DNA of 64,000 nucleotides from Geitlerinema sp. BBD 1991-9 (GTDB taxonomy: Bacteria > Cyanobacteriota > Cyanobacteriia > Cyanobacteriales > Geitlerinemataceae): positions 186,001 through 250,000 of the forward strand of contig LWRO01000008.1 of assembly GCA_001657325.1 (NCBI GenBank), given 5' to 3'. The translations under genes and the position numbers were made by a program. The notes under the pieces are model-generated. The model did no database searches. It was not told the DNA's origin and worked only from the letters and a program-made list of their open reading frames with translations. Positions 7,334-20,725 of this stretch are shown one piece after another. Each line of letters begins with the position of its first letter. Position 1 is the first letter of the stretch.

Positions 7334-10300
7334 TTACCAGGGACTTCCAACGATCGTAAACGAAGCCCAAAAATATGGATGTACGAAATCCAAATCTTGA
7401 GGCGGCGCTACATCACTCGGGAGATCGATCGATCCACCCGAATAGATTAACTGTCCGTTTTCCACACGCACGTCACCTCGCAACACAGCCAGTTGTGTCC
7501 GTTGTAATGCTTCGGCTTTAATCGGAGCCGTTTTCAGATGGTAGTAAAACTCACTCATCAATCCGAGCGTTCCCAAATCACTGACGTACCACAAACTCGC
7601 CAGAGCCGTTTTCGCGCCCGATTGAACGGTAAATCCCGCAAATCCTAATTCTGCCTCGTCACTGCCAACCGCAGTTCGACACGCACTCAACACCACTAAC
7701 TCCACCGGGGGATCGTTCCAATCGAGACTGCGAATTCGATCGAACCCCACGCGCTCGTCGGCAAATTGAATATAAGCACGATCGGCAGAGGCGGATGTAA
7801 ACTCACCGTGGGTTGCCAGGTGAATCAGAGGGACGGGTTCTCGTTCCCGCTGTCGTCGTAGATTTTCAAACGTAAAGTCTGCATCGAGAAAACCGCGCCC
7901 GGAAAAGATATCCATAACGATTCCGACTTCCAACGGTACGGCAGGCAGCGGAATTTGATCGGCAAACGTCGACGCCCCTAGTGCCAAAACGTTGGCATCT
8001 CGAACACTGCGATAGCGCGTATCGACGAGGTTGAGACTCGGAATTAAAGCAAGGTCGAACTGTTCGACTAGAAACTGTTCGCCATTCCACAAGGCGGCTA
8101 AAGGAATCCCTCGCAAGCCTCGATCGAGTGCCAAGACTAACGTTGTCGTTCCCAAACGTTCTAATTCTGGCAAAATCGGCGTGACGAGCCACTCGTAAAG
8201 CTGACGAGCGGGTTCTCGATAGGAATCCCGACGGCGCAATCGAGGATTGAGTAAACCTTCGAGGAGTTGCAGCTTCGCATTGAGAACCGCGTCGCTCGAC
8301 TCGATCGGGATCGATCGATAAATTGGCCCGCCACGGGTTGGAATCGCGATTAAATCAAGGCTGTTGGGGCGAAGCATGACATACAAAACCGTGGGTACGG
8401 TTCCCGTTTCCGAGGCGAGGGTTTGCAGGCGCGTTTGAATTTCGGGCAGCGAGGGATAATCCGGTTGAGGCTCTAAACCCAAGGCTTCTGTAAATTCGCC
8501 GCTTAACGTTTCTTCGATGAGGGGAATTGCATTCTCGATATCCCCCTGGGCTAAGCGTCGGAACAGTTCGATGCGGTTGAAGTTTGCTGCCAAGGGTCGA
8601 TCGAGCAGCTCGATGCGATCGATCCTGACGTCAGCCAAAACATCCAACACGGCTGTAGTAGGTTGTCCTTGAAGATCGGTGACTGCGGCAATTCCTCGCT
8701 CAGAAGTGGGATCGGGCCCGTCCGTTGGAGAGGGAGTCGGTGCGGGTGTCGGCATGGGTGTCGGCACGGGACTCGGTGCGGGACTCGGTGCAGGACTCGG
8801 CATGGGTGTCGGCATGGGTGTCGGTGCGGGACTCGGTGCAGGTGTCGGCACGGGACTCGGTGCGGGTGTCGGCGTGGGTGTTGGCACGGGAGTCGGCGAT
8901 GGAGTCGGTACCGGCGTGGGTGTTGGAGAGGGATTGATTTGAATCGTCGGGCGAATTTCCGAACCGGGAATGACGGTAATCGGCGAAATGGTGTCGCTAC
9001 CCGTCGTTAGTGCGCCTTGCGTACCGTTTTCACTCGCGTCGCCGACGATAAACGGTACGTCGACGGCCGTTCCCCCATGAAAAATCAGAATCGAACCCGG
9101 TGCGGTTCCCCCTGCAGCGGAAATACTCGCAGAAAGACCGTTTCGATCGACAAATGCATCGCTCACTCGTAAAAACCCTGTGGCGTTAATCTCCACCGCC
9201 GCACCGCTCGTTCCACCTTGAGCGTCGATCGAACGCAACTCGATATCGCCCGCTGAAGATAGAAAAACATTCCCCCCGCTCCCTTGAGAACTCGAGGAAA
9301 AAATCTGTCCCGCACTCAGTAAACCGCCACTGGTTACAGAAACGGCACCGCCACTGACCAGACCCCGGGCGTCGAGATCGCCGATATCTAACCCGAAGCC
9401 GAGGTCGAAGACTTGGCTTCCCCCCGTTCCCTGAGAAGAACTCGTATTAACAGATGTGCCTTCAAATCCGCCGGGATTCGCTGTAACGGTAATCCCCCCC
9501 CCAGCTAGAAGTCCGCTGGAATCCAACGTATCGATAAGAATGCCATCGCGCACGTCAAACGAAATTGCGCCCCCCGTTCCAGCGGAAGAAGACGTATCGA
9601 TACGATCGCCATTGAACTCTCCTTGCGTGACCTCGATCGAAACGTTGCCCCCTCCGATCGCACCACTTGCCAGCACGTTACTCAGTTCGCCGCTCAAGCT
9701 CGCTGAAATCGATACAGCCCCCCCTGTCCCCTGACTCGATGTCGTATTGACGGTTGCTGCTCCTCCCTCCAAGTCTCCGAAACTTTCCAGAGCGACCGTC
9801 CCCCCGCCATCGCGGCCGCTGGCTGAAATGTCAGATCTGAAAACGAGATCGTCGGCTGCCGATACGGTCACATCGCCAGCGATGCCGGAACTAGCATCTG
9901 TTCTCAACTGTGCGGTTCCCCCGATCGAATCGAGAAAAATACTGCCGCCGAGACTTTCGAGCGTGATACTCCCACCGCCGAGAGCACCTTCCGTGGCGAT
10001 ATCCGCTGTTTGAGATAAATCTTCCAAAACGCGAACGGCGACGTTACCCCCCGTTCCCGTTCCAGAAGACGTGTCGATCGATCCGCCAATAAACGTTCCC
10101 GTTTGGCTGTCGATCTGCACGTCACCACCGTCAGACCCGCCGCTCGCGAGAATTTCCAAAATGTCGATATTGCCGTTGGCTGACAGCGTCACATCACCTC
10201 CCATACCGAGAGCGCTGCTGTCGAGACCATCTGAAATCGCAATCGTACCGTTTTGACTGGTGAGATCGATCGATCCCCCATCGGTCTCGATCGCATCCGC

Positions 10301-11983
10301 CACAATATCTCCCGAAGCCTCGAAAATCGCCGGTCCCCCAGGAATCGAAACTCGTCCGACACTAATTCCCGGAAAGACGGCCACACCCGACGAAGCAATC
10401 GTTGTATTGCCTGCATCCACGTCGGGAGGGACGTTTGGAGTGTCGATGAGGGTTCCCACCTCAGACCGCAAAATTAACGCTGGAGAACTCGTGAGGATTG
10501 CCAAATCGGGATCGGTTCCCGAGAGGGTCGTATCGGGGCCGGTAATGACGATGTCTCCTCCGATAATTCCCCCCAAACTCTCGATTTTTAAAGAAACGCC
10601 CGTATAGTCCCCGAAAAATACATCTCCCGACGCACGGATAATGGGGTCGTAGCGACTGAAGAACGTTCCCGGTGCGCCAGTGGTGTCGAGAATGGCAAAG
10701 CTCCCGCCGCTGCTAAAGTGCGCGTCTCCCGAAACGATGCCATCGCTCACGAGACTGAGGTTTCCGCCACTCGTAAAGGGAACGAGCGGATGGTTGAGCG
10801 CCCACAGGTCGATGCCCGCGTTACCCTGAATCCACAAATCCGAACCCGTCCGGACGATCGCAGCTCGATCGAGGCTATCGCGGACGAAAACAGTATCTTC
10901 TGCCAACAGACGCGCCGAACCTGCGATGTCGAGGGTCGTTTCGGAAAGGAGTAAATTGTGACGGCTTTGAAGTAAAACTTCACTCGATCGAACCGCCTCC
11001 CCCTCTGTGGCGGCTAGGGCAACATCGCCTAATTCGATCGACGGTAAAGACAACGACAACACGACGCGGCCATCTGACGCGACTGCAATGTGATTCGCAG
11101 ACAGCGCCTGTCCCCCCGTCAGCAAATCCGGTAACGTCGAAACCGAATCGATCGTTGGTTCTGGGGACAGCGGGAGTTCCAAACTCAACAAGTTTCCGGG
11201 AACGCTAAGCCGTACGAAGGGTTCCCCGCCGACGGCTGCCACGATGACATTGCCGTTGGGTGCCTCGAGTTGTCCGGTACTGACGACCGTCGAACCGAGC
11301 AACCCCAACTGAAACCCCGGTGAAACGGCCAGGTGGGCGGTGTTGAAAATCGCACTGGGATTGGACTCGTCGAACCGAAAAGCATTGGGCGTTCCCACGA
11401 GTTGAGCGGTGTCGTTGGACGAGAAAACGTCGAACCAACCGCCCTCGAACCCCACGCCGTCAGCCGTACTGGCCACAAAGGATGCTGGAACGTCGAGTTG
11501 GGCGTTCGGCCCGAAGATCAGTCCGGCTGGATTGAGCAGGAACAAATTCGACGATCCCCCAGTCAGTTGCAGCAAGCCGTTGATGACGGACGGATCGCCA
11601 CCTGTCACACGCCCGAGGACATTTTGGATTTGGGGTTGCGACAGAAAGTTGGCAGTTTGGTCGGTTTCGAGACCGAATGCATCAAAGCTGTGGAAGAGGT
11701 TGCGACCGTCACCGGACTGTTGCCCGCCGTCAATGACGAAGGTGTCACCGTCTGGGACGACCCGAGTTCCCGTTCCGTCGTCTGCCGGAGCGATCTGCGA
11801 AGAAGCCTGCTGTGGAGCCGTACAAAGAAAGATTGCGAGTGCGATCGATCGAGCTGTTAAGGTTGTCTGTCGTCTAGCGTGAGGTCGTTTTTGCCAAAGG
11901 TCTCGCGTTGCTGTAGTTGTGGTGGTGTTTCTCCACCCGTGTCTCGGGTCTTCCAATCCGTGATATTTTCCCAGGTCTCGCAT
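7334..11983 (-). CDS. Two-partner-secretion (filamentous-haemagglutinin-type) exoprotein with C-terminal CHAT caspase-like protease
   Basis: 1549 aa. A long basic N-terminal extension precedes a signal peptide ([17 protein letters not shown], about 46-62). Next is the TPS/haemagglutination-activity domain (about 65-205), recognisable by [44 protein letters not shown] and [10 protein letters not shown]. Residues about 210-1000 are Gly/Ser-rich beta-helix repeats (TSSSQGTGG units). A Pro/Thr/Ser linker at about 1017-1086 joins them to a CHAT domain (about 1230-1549) with its catalytic dyad: His1392 (LATHGEF) and Cys1435 (LSACRTAVG). Established: TPS proteins leave through a TpsB/Omp85 pore, and CHAT domains are clan CD cysteine peptidases. 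No TpsB gene is in the window. It starts 15 bases after the DUF1818 stop and probably shares its transcript. Confidence 0.92.
8727..8935 (-). repeat. In-frame tandem repeats encoding a Pro-Thr-Ser linker
   Basis: About 210 bases of degenerate 6-, 12- and 18-base units (GGTGTCGGC / GGACTCGGT on the + strand) encode P-x-P-T/S-P units between the beta-helix and the CHAT domain of the exoprotein. This is typical of a flexible linker that can change length by slippage. Confidence 0.85.
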
Positions 11984-12770: not shown

Positions 12771-12909
12771 TCGATCGAAACTTTTAGAAGGCAGGCTCGC
12801 TCAATACGCTCGATCGAGGGCAGAAACGCTCGGGTTCATGGGTTATCGAGAGGCGTTTCCGTGAGAACCGTACTCTCTTCGTAATTCTCTACCAGCTAAG
12901 GTGCGAACT

Positions 12910-14169
12910 ATGGCCAAGGTACTTTCCCTGCCTGTTCCTCAAAATTGCATTCCGAAAAAGCAAGTCGTGGAATCGCCAGTTTCGGCGTTAAGTTTCGAAC
13001 GGCAGATGCAAGTCATATTGTCCTGGGCAAGTCATCGGGAAAATCGTACCGTCTGTGTGGCAAACGTCCATATGCTGATGGAAGCGCACTGGAACCCAGA
13101 CTTTGCCCGTGTATTGCGCAATTCTGACTTGGTGACACCGGACGGTATGCCGTTGGTGTGGATGCTGCGACTGTTAGGCGCTGCTAAGCAAGACCGAGTT
13201 GCCGGAATGGACATCCTCTTCAGTCTCTGCCAACAAGCACCGAAATACGGTGTCAGCGCTTACTTCCTCGGTTCTCATCAAGCCGTCCTCGATCGAATGA
13301 AACAACGGCTCGATCGAGAATTCAGCGACCTCGACATTGCCGGAATGGAACCGCTTCCGTTCCGTCCTCTGACTCCTGAAGAAGACGACGAACTCGTCGA
13401 TCGAATTAACCGAAGTGGAGCGGGTATCGTCTTCGTTTCCCTTGGATGTCCCAAACAGGAAAAATGGATCGACGCTCATCGAGATCGCATCAACGCCGTT
13501 ACCCTCGGTGTTGGAGGTGTCTTTCCCGTCTACGCCGGACTTCACCGTCGCGCTCCTCAAATGATGCGCGAGGCAGGACTCGAATGGTTCTATCGGCTCG
13601 TTCAAGAACCGCGTCGCCTGTGGAAGCGATACATGGAAACGATTCCGCCCTTCCTGTGGTTAGCGGCTAAGCAACTCGCCGCTCATTACGCCCGCAAAGC
13701 GGTACGAGTGGTGAAGTCGAAACTCGAACGATATGACAAACGTTTAGAAGACGAATGGCGAGATCGCCGTATCGGGCAACTTTTACAGGAAGCGGGATTG
13801 ATTTCGCGAGATCGAGTCGAAGCGGCTTTAGCTGCTCAAGCCAATGAATATCGCAACTTACGCTTCGGTGAAATTTTGGTTCAGCAAGGCTTAGTCAAGC
13901 AAGAAACCGTTGATTTCTTTGCCGAACAACTCACCCGCATTTCTGAAACCGAATCTCGGCATCCGATCGGCCACTATCTCAAATCCGCAGCGCTGCTCGA
14001 CGACAGTCAAATCGATCAGATTCTGGTCGCTCAGCAACATATCGGATTACCGTTTGGCGAAATGGCTGTCCTGATGGGATGGGTCAAACAAGAAACCATC
14101 GACCTGTTCTTGGAATTTGCCACGCCCGCGCCATCAATGGCTCCCGTGACGTATTGGAAATTGGGATGA
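12910..14169 (+). CDS. WecG/TagA/CpsF-family glycosyltransferase with C-terminal MshEN-like repeats
   Basis: 419 aa from the ATG at 12910, preceded by AAGG; a GTG at 12901 is a weaker alternative. Residues about 20-245 form the GT26 domain: NVHMLMEAHWNPDFARVL, DLVTPDGMPLVWMLRLLG, YFLGSHQAVLDRM, VSLGCPKQEKWIDAHR, GVGGVFPVYAG. This family adds an N-acetylmannosamine-type or similar sugar to a lipid-linked acceptor in exopolysaccharide or teichoic-acid synthesis. After a basic helix come four related units starting near Arg287, Arg318, Pro352 and Pro381. The first two keep the MshEN spacing RxG-xx-L-xxx-G-L/I...L-xx-Q, the c-di-GMP-binding signature of MshE-type ATPases; the last two are degenerate. 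Inference: a membrane-associated polysaccharide enzyme tuned by c-di-GMP. Confidence 0.87.
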   Translation: MAKVLSLPVPQNCIPKKQVVESPVSALSFERQMQVILSWASHRENRTVCVANVHMLMEAHWNPDFARVLRNSDLVTPDGMPLVWMLRLLGAAKQDRVAGMDILFSLCQQAPKYGVSAYFLGSHQAVLDRMKQRLDREFSDLDIAGMEPLPFRPLTPEEDDELVDRINRSGAGIVFVSLGCPKQEKWIDAHRDRINAVTLGVGGVFPVYAGLHRRAPQMMREAGLEWFYRLVQEPRRLWKRYMETIPPFLWLAAKQLAAHYARKAVRVVKSKLERYDKRLEDEWRDRRIGQLLQEAGLISRDRVEAALAAQANEYRNLRFGEILVQQGLVKQETVDFFAEQLTRISETESRHPIGHYLKSAALLDDSQIDQILVAQQHIGLPFGEMAVLMGWVKQETIDLFLEFATPAPSMAPVTYWKLG

Positions 14170-14222: not shown

Positions 14223-14268
14223 ACCCTTCATGGAGCTGTTGTCTACAGCCGCTCTATGAAGGGTTTTT
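14223..14268 (+). terminator. Rho-independent terminator after the WecG-type gene
   Basis: ACCCTTCAT (14223-14231) pairs with ATGAAGGGT (14256-14264), with an inner GCTG/CAGC stem, and is followed by TTTTT. Stem plus T-run is a clear intrinsic terminator. Confidence 0.85.
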
Positions 14269-14382
14269 AAAGGGGAGTATGCAGTCTGGATTTCCGAATC
14301 GTCGATCGAGCGTACATCCGATATCGATCGATATTCGATCGTTATTTTGAGAAAAGGACAGGGTCAAGAGAGAACCGTGGAA

Positions 14383-18154: not shown

Positions 18155-20725
18155 CTAGAAAAATCGAATCGCCGACGGATCGTTTTCGGGTAAGGCGACG
18201 ATTGGGGATTGCGTGAGGTTCGGACGGTTGCTTAAAACGACGAGCAAACTCATTGAATCGGGGTCGCCACCGCTACCGAAGTACAAGCCTCCCGTTTGAC
18301 GGTCGTAGCTGATGACGCCTTGGCTCGTTCCTGCTACTGGAAAGCCGGGAAAATTCGCGAAAATGAAATCGCCGCTATTGTTAGGGGTTGCGTCTAAGTT
18401 ACCGAGGAGAGTGCCGCCGGAAAATACGATGAAGTCAACGCCCGTTCCCGAAATCGAAAAGCCGATATCGTTTTCGTTGACGATGATGCGATCGCCCTCG
18501 CTAAAGTTGAAATCGGTAATGGTATCGACGTGAAGGGCGGGATTTACGGTTCCGATATCACCGACGTTCGTTCCGGTGGCACTTTCGACTGTTTGTCCGC
18601 TCGTTCCAATGACTGCACCTGGGGCAACGGTGACCCCCGAACCGACTGTACCGACTTCTGTACGAGCCGTTTGTCGATCGTCGGTAAATAGGAAAATGTC
18701 AGCTCCAGCACCTCCTGAGAGGATATCGCCATCGGTGAATACGGTTCCCGTATTGGCTCGTAGCGACCCCGCTACGTTTTTCCACTCGTCGAGATTTCCA
18801 ACACCACCAAAGAGGGTATCGTTGCCGTTGCCACCGAGGAGTCGATCGCCGGCGTACTGACGACCTTGTAGGAAATCGTCTCCAACGCCAGCATCGATAA
18901 CTAAGGCTGCGGTGTTCGTTCCAACTGTGGCACTCGAAGCAATTCCCAAGGTATCGCTTCCGTCCCCGCCGCTGAGGGTGGTTGGAGTAGCATCGTCGGC
19001 TGTTCCCAATCCCGATAGGGTCAGGGAGTCGTTACCGTCGTCTCCGTCAATGCGAACGCCATCCCCGACGATACCGAGTGCTGCAAGATCGTCACCGTTG
19101 CCCGTGCTGATAAAGGCATTGGGTGAAATCGTCTCGAAGGTTAGGCTGTCGTCTCCCGCGCCAGCTTCAACGGTTCCAGCAACGCGGGTGATGCTCAGGG
19201 TATCGTCACCATCGCCGCCACTGATGCGGCCGGTCGAGGTTAGTCCAGCACGACCGGAGACGGTCATGACATCGTTGCCGTCTCCTCCTCTGACGGTACC
19301 CGAAACCGTCTCGAATTCGAGGGTGTCGTTGCCGCCTCCAGCATCGGTGAGTCCCGAGGCCATTTGGATTTCGATTCGATCGATCCCGCTTCCGACGACG
19401 ACACCGCCTCCCTCGATGTTGATGAAGCGATTCTCGTCGCCGAGAACGATAAAGGTGGCTCGACCGGACAACGAGTCGTCCGATTGGAGGGTAACGGGGG
19501 TTCGATCGGCGTTGTTTCCGATGTAGATGTTGATGCCGTCGTCGTCGAAGGGGATGATATCGCCTTCTTGAAAGGTATAAGTATCGTTGCCAACACCGCC
19601 AATCAGGGTATTGCCGCCGCCGGAACCTTCGCTCGTCAGTTCGTCGTTCCCGCTAAATCCGAGGAGTAGATTGTTACTGCCGACGGCGACCAATTCGTCG
19701 TTCCCTCCGTTAGCTGTGGCGGCGTTGTCGTTGTCGCCGGCTAGTCGGTTGTTATTGCCGACACCCCGAACGACATCGTTACCGAAGTTTTCAGTGGCAT
19801 TGGGATTGTCTCCCCACAACTGCGCGCCACTGGCGGAAAGGTTGAGATTGTCGTTTCCTTCGTCTCCACTGGCAAAGAGTTCGTTGCCGACGGCTTTACC
19901 CGTGAGTCGATCTTTGCCTTTGCCCCCCAACAACTCAACCCCCGATCCGACTTCGCCGAGTTCGAGTTCGTCGTCGCCACGGTTGCCAAAGAGAAGGTGT
20001 CGGTTTCCACCCGCGACGAAGAGGCGATCGTCTCCGGCGTCGGTGCCATCTCCGATCAGTAATGCCGCATCGACTTGTGTTCCTTGGACGCGCAGTCGAT
20101 CGTTTCCTTCTTCACCGAGCAGTACGGGGTTATCGGCGTTGCTGGTACTGCCGACGAGGAGGTAATCGCCATCTCGCCCTCCCAAGAGACTATCTTCGTC
20201 GTTGCCAACCGCTCTGGATTCGAGGGTATCTTTTCCGGCGTTTCCCGCCAAGATCGATCGACCGTTGCCCTGTAGGTTGTCGTCTCCGTCTCCACCAATG
20301 GCAGTATCCAGACCCCCTTCGCCGATGAATCGATCGTCTCCCTCGTGACCGATAAATAAATTTTCTGCTTCTTTGACGAAAGCGTAGTCGTCTCCGAGTC
20401 CGCCGAGTAGGATGTAGTTGCCTTCTTCGCCGAAAAGACTGTCGCGTCCTCGATCTCCGGAAAGGACGGCTTGTCCGGTTTCGTTGAAAATGGTATCGCC
20501 ATCTCGTCCGCCAAAGACTGTATCGCCGATTCCTTTGCTTTCGAGATAGTCTTGTCCTCGGTTGCCGAAGAGTTGACTACCGGGTTTCTGACCGTTAATA
20601 CTACTCGTTAGGGTATCGTCCCCGCCAAATCCAATGAGGATTCCGGTACCTCGACCGATAAGTGACAAGATGTCGTTGCTGCTATCGCCAATGAGAACGT
20701 TTGTTAAAGTGTCGTTGAGGGTCAT
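18155..20725 (-). CDS. RTX calcium-binding repeat protein (type I secreted)
   Basis: 856 aa, almost entirely haemolysin-type nonapeptide repeats (GGDGDD, GGRDGD, LFGNRGQD and similar) from residue 10 to about 690. No separate N-terminal domain is seen. The C-terminus (about 690-856: DTITDFNFSEGDRIIV, then GDFIFANFPGFP and SYDRQTGGLYFGSGG) is the non-repetitive end typical of proteins exported by type I (ABC) secretion with an uncleaved C-terminal signal. The repeats bind calcium and fold outside the cell as parallel beta-rolls. Probable role: surface layer, adhesin or matrix protein; no enzymatic domain is visible. It lies close to a second, larger RTX protein (22376-27256), both on the minus strand. 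Confidence 0.88.
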   Translation of the reverse strand: MTLNDTLTNVLIGDSSNDILSLIGRGTGILIGFGGDDTLTSSINGQKPGSQLFGNRGQDYLESKGIGDTVFGGRDGDTIFNETGQAVLSGDRGRDSLFGEEGNYILLGGLGDDYAFVKEAENLFIGHEGDDRFIGEGGLDTAIGGDGDDNLQGNGRSILAGNAGKDTLESRAVGNDEDSLLGGRDGDYLLVGSTSNADNPVLLGEEGNDRLRVQGTQVDAALLIGDGTDAGDDRLFVAGGNRHLLFGNRGDDELELGEVGSGVELLGGKGKDRLTGKAVGNELFASGDEGNDNLNLSASGAQLWGDNPNATENFGNDVVRGVGNNNRLAGDNDNAATANGGNDELVAVGSNNLLLGFSGNDELTSEGSGGGNTLIGGVGNDTYTFQEGDIIPFDDDGINIYIGNNADRTPVTLQSDDSLSGRATFIVLGDENRFINIEGGGVVVGSGIDRIEIQMASGLTDAGGGNDTLEFETVSGTVRGGDGNDVMTVSGRAGLTSTGRISGGDGDDTLSITRVAGTVEAGAGDDSLTFETISPNAFISTGNGDDLAALGIVGDGVRIDGDDGNDSLTLSGLGTADDATPTTLSGGDGSDTLGIASSATVGTNTAALVIDAGVGDDFLQGRQYAGDRLLGGNGNDTLFGGVGNLDEWKNVAGSLRANTGTVFTDGDILSGGAGADIFLFTDDRQTARTEVGTVGSGVTVAPGAVIGTSGQTVESATGTNVGDIGTVNPALHVDTITDFNFSEGDRIIVNENDIGFSISGTGVDFIVFSGGTLLGNLDATPNNSGDFIFANFPGFPVAGTSQGVISYDRQTGGLYFGSGGDPDSMSLLVVLSNRPNLTQSPIVALPENDPSAIRFF

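Follow-up and report, generated by a model that had tools for sequence, protein, structure and literature searches.

The pairing of a glycosyltransferase with an MshEN domain is already known through NfrB of Escherichia coli, a c-di-GMP-activated, membrane-linked enzyme of polysaccharide synthesis whose C-terminal domain is an MshEN and in which both the transferase activity and c-di-GMP binding are required for infection by phage N4 (PMC8669469). Glycosyltransferase fusions were also named in the paper that discovered MshEN (PMC5013675). The domain itself is a two-motif, four-helix c-di-GMP receiver that in MshE and PilF is carried by secretion or pilus ATPases. The GSPII-B domain of Thermus PilF binds c-di-GMP at 6 nM, with a second motif that is one residue short (PMC11731258), while PilF GSPII-A is a solved MshEN domain which does not bind, so that the fold alone is no guarantee (PMC12002112). 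Contact rules, drawn from the MshE complex and its mutants, from PilF GSPII-B and from a rebuilt GSPII-A, ask for a glycine at position 3, a glutamine at the end of both motifs and Arg, Lys or Leu as first residue, together with hydrophobic residues at positions 2, 17 and 21 (PMC5013675, PMC11731258, PMC12002112).

On the side of the enzyme, the TagA/TarA, WecG and CpsF proteins of family GT26 have ca. 240–260 amino acids and no sensor tail. TagA is active only once its C-terminal appendage covers the active site at the membrane, where it supplies the catalytic arginine R221, and being active goes together with binding to the membrane and a shift from dimer to monomer; the exchange T37A lowers activity without abolishing it (PMC6493773).

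Within the 64,000-nucleotide stretch of the Geitlerinema sp. BBD 1991-9 genome analysed here (hereafter the window), one gene encodes a WecG/TagA-type enzyme that continues into two tandem MshEN domains. In general layout, and in a tail that is matched by the NfrB family model, the protein resembles NfrB, but its enzyme belongs to a different family (PF03808/GT26) and it carries two MshEN domains, unlike NfrB; moreover, c-di-GMP binding and the functional need for it were shown experimentally in NfrB, whereas for the window protein both are predictions. With TagA it shares the full domain, the fold and the equivalents of D65, N39, Q167, E168 and R221. With MshE and PilF GSPII-B it shares the domain type and, in its first domain, the contact glycines and glutamines, and with GSPII-B also the short second motif, but there is no ATPase, the Leu54 position of MshE is occupied by Thr, and the second domain has Pro for Arg and lacks the second Gln. 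Three features seem unreported: the pairing with GT26, the doubling of MshEN within one module, and the reappearance of this module on several cyanobacterial enzyme families. A literature search returned no paper linking MshEN or c-di-GMP with WecG/TagA/CpsF, the supplementary fusion lists of PMC5013675, which may hold an earlier listing, lying outside its scope.

Gene context and the GT26 enzyme

The gene occupies positions 12910–14169 on the forward strand of the window and encodes 419 amino acids from an ATG, with GTG at 12901 as an alternative start on inspection of the open reading frame (ORF). On its 3′ side a terminator-like hairpin followed by a T run (14223–14269, forward strand) was read by eye; it is missing from the automated scan results because its loop exceeds the length limits of the scan. 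No structured RNA and no sigma-70-like promoter was found near 12910–14169. The flanking genes, with dnaJ/dnaK downstream, are unrelated to the polysaccharide gene and form no obvious polysaccharide cluster. The same gene order, dnaJ-dnaK again downstream, surrounds the closest relative in the genome scan, from Baaleninema simplex PCC 7105. The source genome counts 31 GGDEF domains. Two further ORFs of the window were noted by eye on the reverse strand, a large one that starts like a filamentous haemagglutinin and whose C-terminal part is CHAT-like (7334–11983) and a long one with many calcium-binding repeats of the GGDGxD type (18155–20725).

The WecG/TagA/CpsF domain comprises residues 72–241 (13123–13632, forward strand). 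It is complete, as had been stated in the preliminary description: in the Pfam scan PF03808 is covered over positions 1–168 of 168 (E 2e-61), and by Foldseek this part superposes on TagA (7mpk) with a TM score of 0.92 on the target at 27% identity. In the residue alignment D78, R96, Q183, E184, R229, R236 and R240 take the places of TagA D65, R83, Q167, E168, R214, R221 and R224, and N52, the counterpart of TagA N39, is found just upstream of the PF03808 domain. The only listed catalytic residue to have changed is T37 of TagA, replaced by V50, suggesting that the donor may not be UDP-ManNAc and that the sugar substrate may differ. Equivalents of D65, N39, Q167, E168, R214, R221 and R224 are present in all 22 of 22 fused proteins, from which these proteins should be active enzymes. 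The connection to the sensor is a predicted long helix, residues 234–284 (13609–13761, forward strand), which in the AlphaFold2 model starts inside the TagA-type C-terminal appendage, the element that carries R236 and R240, and runs on to the module.

An NfrB-type catalytic domain is absent, the enzyme being PF03808; the NfrB glycosyltransferase models, and that of EpsG, do match the tail, those of NfrB mainly there and far below their cut-offs. Weak Pfam matches to DUF4388 and FixO were set aside, as they too fall below their cut-offs, and an origin from a secretion ATPase (GspE/PilB, T2SS/T4P) was rejected, the Pfam scan containing no ATPase family.

The tandem MshEN module and its ligand contacts

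Residues 287–403 form four helix-hairpin units that pair as two MshEN domains, with unit starts exactly where they had been placed before, at residues 287, 318, 352 and 381. Domain 1 (residues 287–340; 13768–13929) combines unit 1 (residues 287–310; 13768–13839), a canonical 24-residue motif, with unit 2 (residues 318–340; 13861–13929), whose motif is one residue short of the MshE consensus. Domain 2 (residues 352–403; 13963–14118) combines unit 3 (residues 352–375; 13963–14034) with unit 4 (residues 381–403; 14050–14118), in which the final Gln has become F403; all lie on the forward strand.

The assignment of the tail to MshEN, proposed earlier from motif spacing, is upheld by sequence models, by matches to solved structures and by superposition. 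As a profile check the outcome was divided, since no match to the Pfam MshEN profile PF05157 was reported for the window protein, while NF053729, the NCBIfam model of the MshE-type c-di-GMP motif (a 53-residue two-motif domain, cut-off 38 bits), matches the whole protein in two stretches at 72.6 bits (E 1.7e-20), far beyond chance. Taken alone, domain 1 scores 48.1 bits, above the cut-off, and domain 2 scores 34.4 bits (E 1.4e-8), under it. The solved structures nearest to the tail by sequence are PilF and MshE, and in the PDB a profile of the module retrieves nothing but MshEN-type ATPases. Structure prediction places the tail in the same fold. AlphaFold2, given an alignment of 50 relatives, models the whole protein with a mean pLDDT of 92 as the WecG domain, the long helix 234–284 and eight short helices, the placement of enzyme against sensor being uncertain (pTM 0.72). 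In a model of the module by itself (pLDDT 88.5), domain 2 superposes by VIA-align on c-di-GMP-bound MshE (5htl; Z 9.2, rmsd 1.7, 60 aligned) and on PilF GSPII-B (8pdk/8pfa; Z 8.9, rmsd 1.1, 57 aligned). A Z of about 9 is modest for an all-helical model; the best ten rows of the comparison are all MshEN-type and the next, unrelated row has Z 2.8. These superposition scores concern domain 2, the four-helix fold of domain 1 resting on the secondary structure of the model and on sequence. The agreement of sequence and predicted fold is decisive for MshEN homology, and in our judgement an MshEN origin and fold for the tail are virtually certain.

The exact motif pattern had been ascribed to both of the first two units. 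Unit 1, at residue 287, fits it as written; unit 2 fits only when the spacing is relaxed by one, as its stretch from the central glycine G327 to the final glutamine Q340 is shorter by a residue. The distance from the first motif start to the second is 31 residues, as against 29 in MshE (24 + 5). The short motif of unit 2 aligns gap-free with motif II of PilF GSPII-B. Units 3 and 4 had been called degenerate, which is correct when they are measured against the canonical motif (Arg to Pro in both, Gly to Ala in unit 3, final Gln to Phe in unit 4) but not within the subfamily, where the same positions are conserved as strongly as in units 1 and 2. A conservation count over 48 relatives, in which domain 2 is as conserved as domain 1, leads us to reject the idea that these units are decaying. 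The 48 relatives instead show a family-wide split between odd units of the form P[LI]G...Q and even units of the form R[FL]GE...GW..ETxDFF, the latter starting with Arg or Lys, with the T and DFF fixed and mostly without the Gln.

Set against the contact rules, the two domains of the window protein differ. Domain 1 presents R287, I288, G289, V303, L307 and Q310 in its first motif and R318, F319, G320, T333, F337 and Q340 in its second, with G/G, Q/Q and R/R as the rules ask; its sole departure is in motif II, where Thr333 takes the place of the Leu54-type contact. That position is Thr in 47/48 copies of unit 2 and 48/48 of unit 4. Domain 2 presents P352, I353, G354, I368, L372 and Q375, then P381, F382, G383, T396, F400 and F403, with Pro instead of Arg at both first positions and without the second Gln. 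Motif II of PilF GSPII-C likewise begins with Pro and the domain still binds (PMC11731258, PMC12002112), so Pro alone would not be fatal. Across the family the third-position Gly and the motif Gln of unit 1 are kept in 48/48 and 39/48 copies, and those of unit 3 in 42/48 and 46/48. The second Gln persists in only 20/48 copies of domain 1 (unit 2) and 2/48 of domain 2 (unit 4), so that binding may be weak or absent in many relatives. Five of the 48, the window protein included, have a domain 1 that combines G/G, Q/Q and a first residue of R, K or L. From these contact residues we judge that domain 1 probably binds c-di-GMP. The forecast of a single functional site accompanied by a structural pair is, as read from sequence, a fair one for this protein, since the contact rules agree with it, but on grounds other than those first offered: the argument from decay is wrong, given the conservation of domain 2 and its resemblance in fold to ligand-bound MshEN.

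Possible control of the enzyme by c-di-GMP

A mechanism can be proposed in which units 1 and 2 of domain 1 most likely share a single c-di-GMP, while domain 2, with one good half-site, would act as a conserved partner whose own binding in this protein is probably weak or nil. As it adjoins the catalytic appendage of the presumably membrane-associated enzyme, the sensor could favour or hinder docking of the appendage, and with it favour or block the active state that depends on R236 (TagA R221). In this way c-di-GMP would govern a step that is early and committed, the addition of a sugar to a polyprenyl-linked acceptor of a surface polysaccharide. That c-di-GMP gates an early polysaccharide step in this way, through domain 1 and the appendage of a WecG/TagA-type enzyme, is the reading we incline towards; for gating of the enzyme taken by itself, our judgement is that the chances are even or slightly better. 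Against this reading stand Thr333 and the frequent loss of the second Gln among relatives, the lack of a PF05157 match, the unrelated neighbouring genes, the uncertain placement of enzyme and sensor in the model, and the example of PilF GSPII-A. If correct, c-di-GMP would control an early, committed lipid-carrier step in addition to a final polymerase such as cellulose synthase or NfrB, the protein would be a candidate for tying cyanobacterial polysaccharide directly to c-di-GMP, and a concrete handle would be gained on how the catalytic appendage of TagA is controlled.

The contact residues also bear on whether the fold senses any nucleotide. PilF GSPII-A, the non-binding MshEN, has been proposed as a landing pad (PMC12002112), and the module could similarly be a docking platform linking the glycosyltransferase to partners in the polysaccharide machinery. 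Loss of the second Gln from domain 2 and from more than half of the domain 1 copies, Thr at a hydrophobic contact and the fusions to TPR and pentapeptide proteins would all suit such a scaffold. It leaves unaccounted for, however, the retention of the ligand-contacting Gly and Gln in units 1 and 3 at the frequencies given above, and the place of the window protein among the few with G/G, Q/Q and R/K/L in domain 1, and we regard a purely docking role as rather unlikely. The even half-sites also raise the question of which ligand is read: they are remodelled uniformly among the relatives, with T and DFF fixed and the final Gln mostly lost, and the second half-site thereby departs from that of MshE in a conserved manner, as it would if another cyclic dinucleotide or a nucleotide-sugar were bound. 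Against this, the second half-site of the window protein retains R318, G320, F337 and Q340, c-di-AMP is not a ligand of MshEN (PMC5013675) and the genome is rich in GGDEF proteins, which makes a different ligand very improbable.

Binding of c-di-GMP might, on the other hand, set the location or dimerisation of the enzyme, for example by recruitment to the membrane or to a complex, and not its catalysis. The predicted helix 234–284 and the hydrophobic N-termini of two short module proteins (L093, L129) suggest a membrane setting, and TagA activity is tied to membrane association and to the dimer-to-monomer change (PMC6493773). Yet in TagA localisation and activity are one mechanism, which may not separate from gating at all, and the module is attached directly to the catalytic appendage; an effect on location or assembly alone thus appears quite unlikely.

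Recurrence of the module across enzyme families

The genome scan, which used 8 module sequences as query and relies on two peptide patterns, so that it is not exhaustive, returned 74 loci, all cyanobacterial save one metagenome-assembled genome (MAG) labelled Gracilibacteria (L181). A search of plasmids yielded no fusion matching the greater part of the protein. Fused WecG proteins fall in two deep clades, and most close orthologues of the window protein (ca. 60% identical) end near residue 260, without the module. A tree of 86 WecG domains implies 9 changes of fused state, at least 4 of them forced by well-supported branches, and the fusion was rejected as a marker of one clade, given that fused and plain WecG proteins intermix on the tree.

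Beyond WecG, the module stands at the N-terminus of a Bac_transf polyprenyl sugar transferase (L119) and at the C-terminus of GT4 enzymes (L030, L172); other copies are stand-alone or N-terminal on TPR and pentapeptide-repeat proteins. In the module tree a branch supported at 100/97 divides the glycosyltransferase-borne modules and two short proteins from 50 modules that are stand-alone or belong to TPR and pentapeptide proteins; one cluster of WecG modules (L070/L071/L073) lies at the midpoint root, on a long branch of its own. Among the glycosyltransferase-borne modules, those of the two WecG clades (I and II), Bac_transf and GT4 are mixed with one another; the alignment has few columns, so the inner branches are weak. 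Read most simply, this means that a glycosyltransferase-type module has moved among unrelated sugar-transferring enzymes. A bolder reading, which we put forward tentatively and consider doubtful, is that cyanobacteria shuffled one glycosyltransferase-specific four-unit module over GT26 (twice), a polyprenyl sugar transferase and GT4, so that c-di-GMP would govern the opening steps of polysaccharide assembly in a coordinated way, with the odd/even split marking a distinct ligand-reading variant of MshEN. The presence of the module on three enzyme types would allow the hypothesis of direct action by c-di-GMP to be tested in parallel.

Several smaller observations accompany this distribution. The two short proteins, L093 (a 202 aa ORF) and L129 (236 aa), consist of a hydrophobic N-terminal stretch and then the module, and because their modules group with the glycosyltransferase-borne type they may act in trans as versions anchored in the membrane. 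The family of the window organism also has conserved small proteins with a single MshEN-like pair (L002, L021–L028, L032), L002 being a 159 aa ORF at contig C80:139969-140178 of genome G000. The Bac_transf proteins with an N-terminal tandem module are L074/L119, and the same MAG holds two WecG-module fusions. In one cyanobacterial family (f20), WecG proteins have a longer tail, namely L218 and L219 (513 aa) and L072/L216 (492 aa); two matches of the module profile in each of L218 and L219 point to about six MshEN-like units. Lastly, in L073 (genome G129) the WecG-module gene appears split, with an in-frame stop, into two ORFs of ca. 182 and 260 aa, possibly a pseudogene or a sequencing error.
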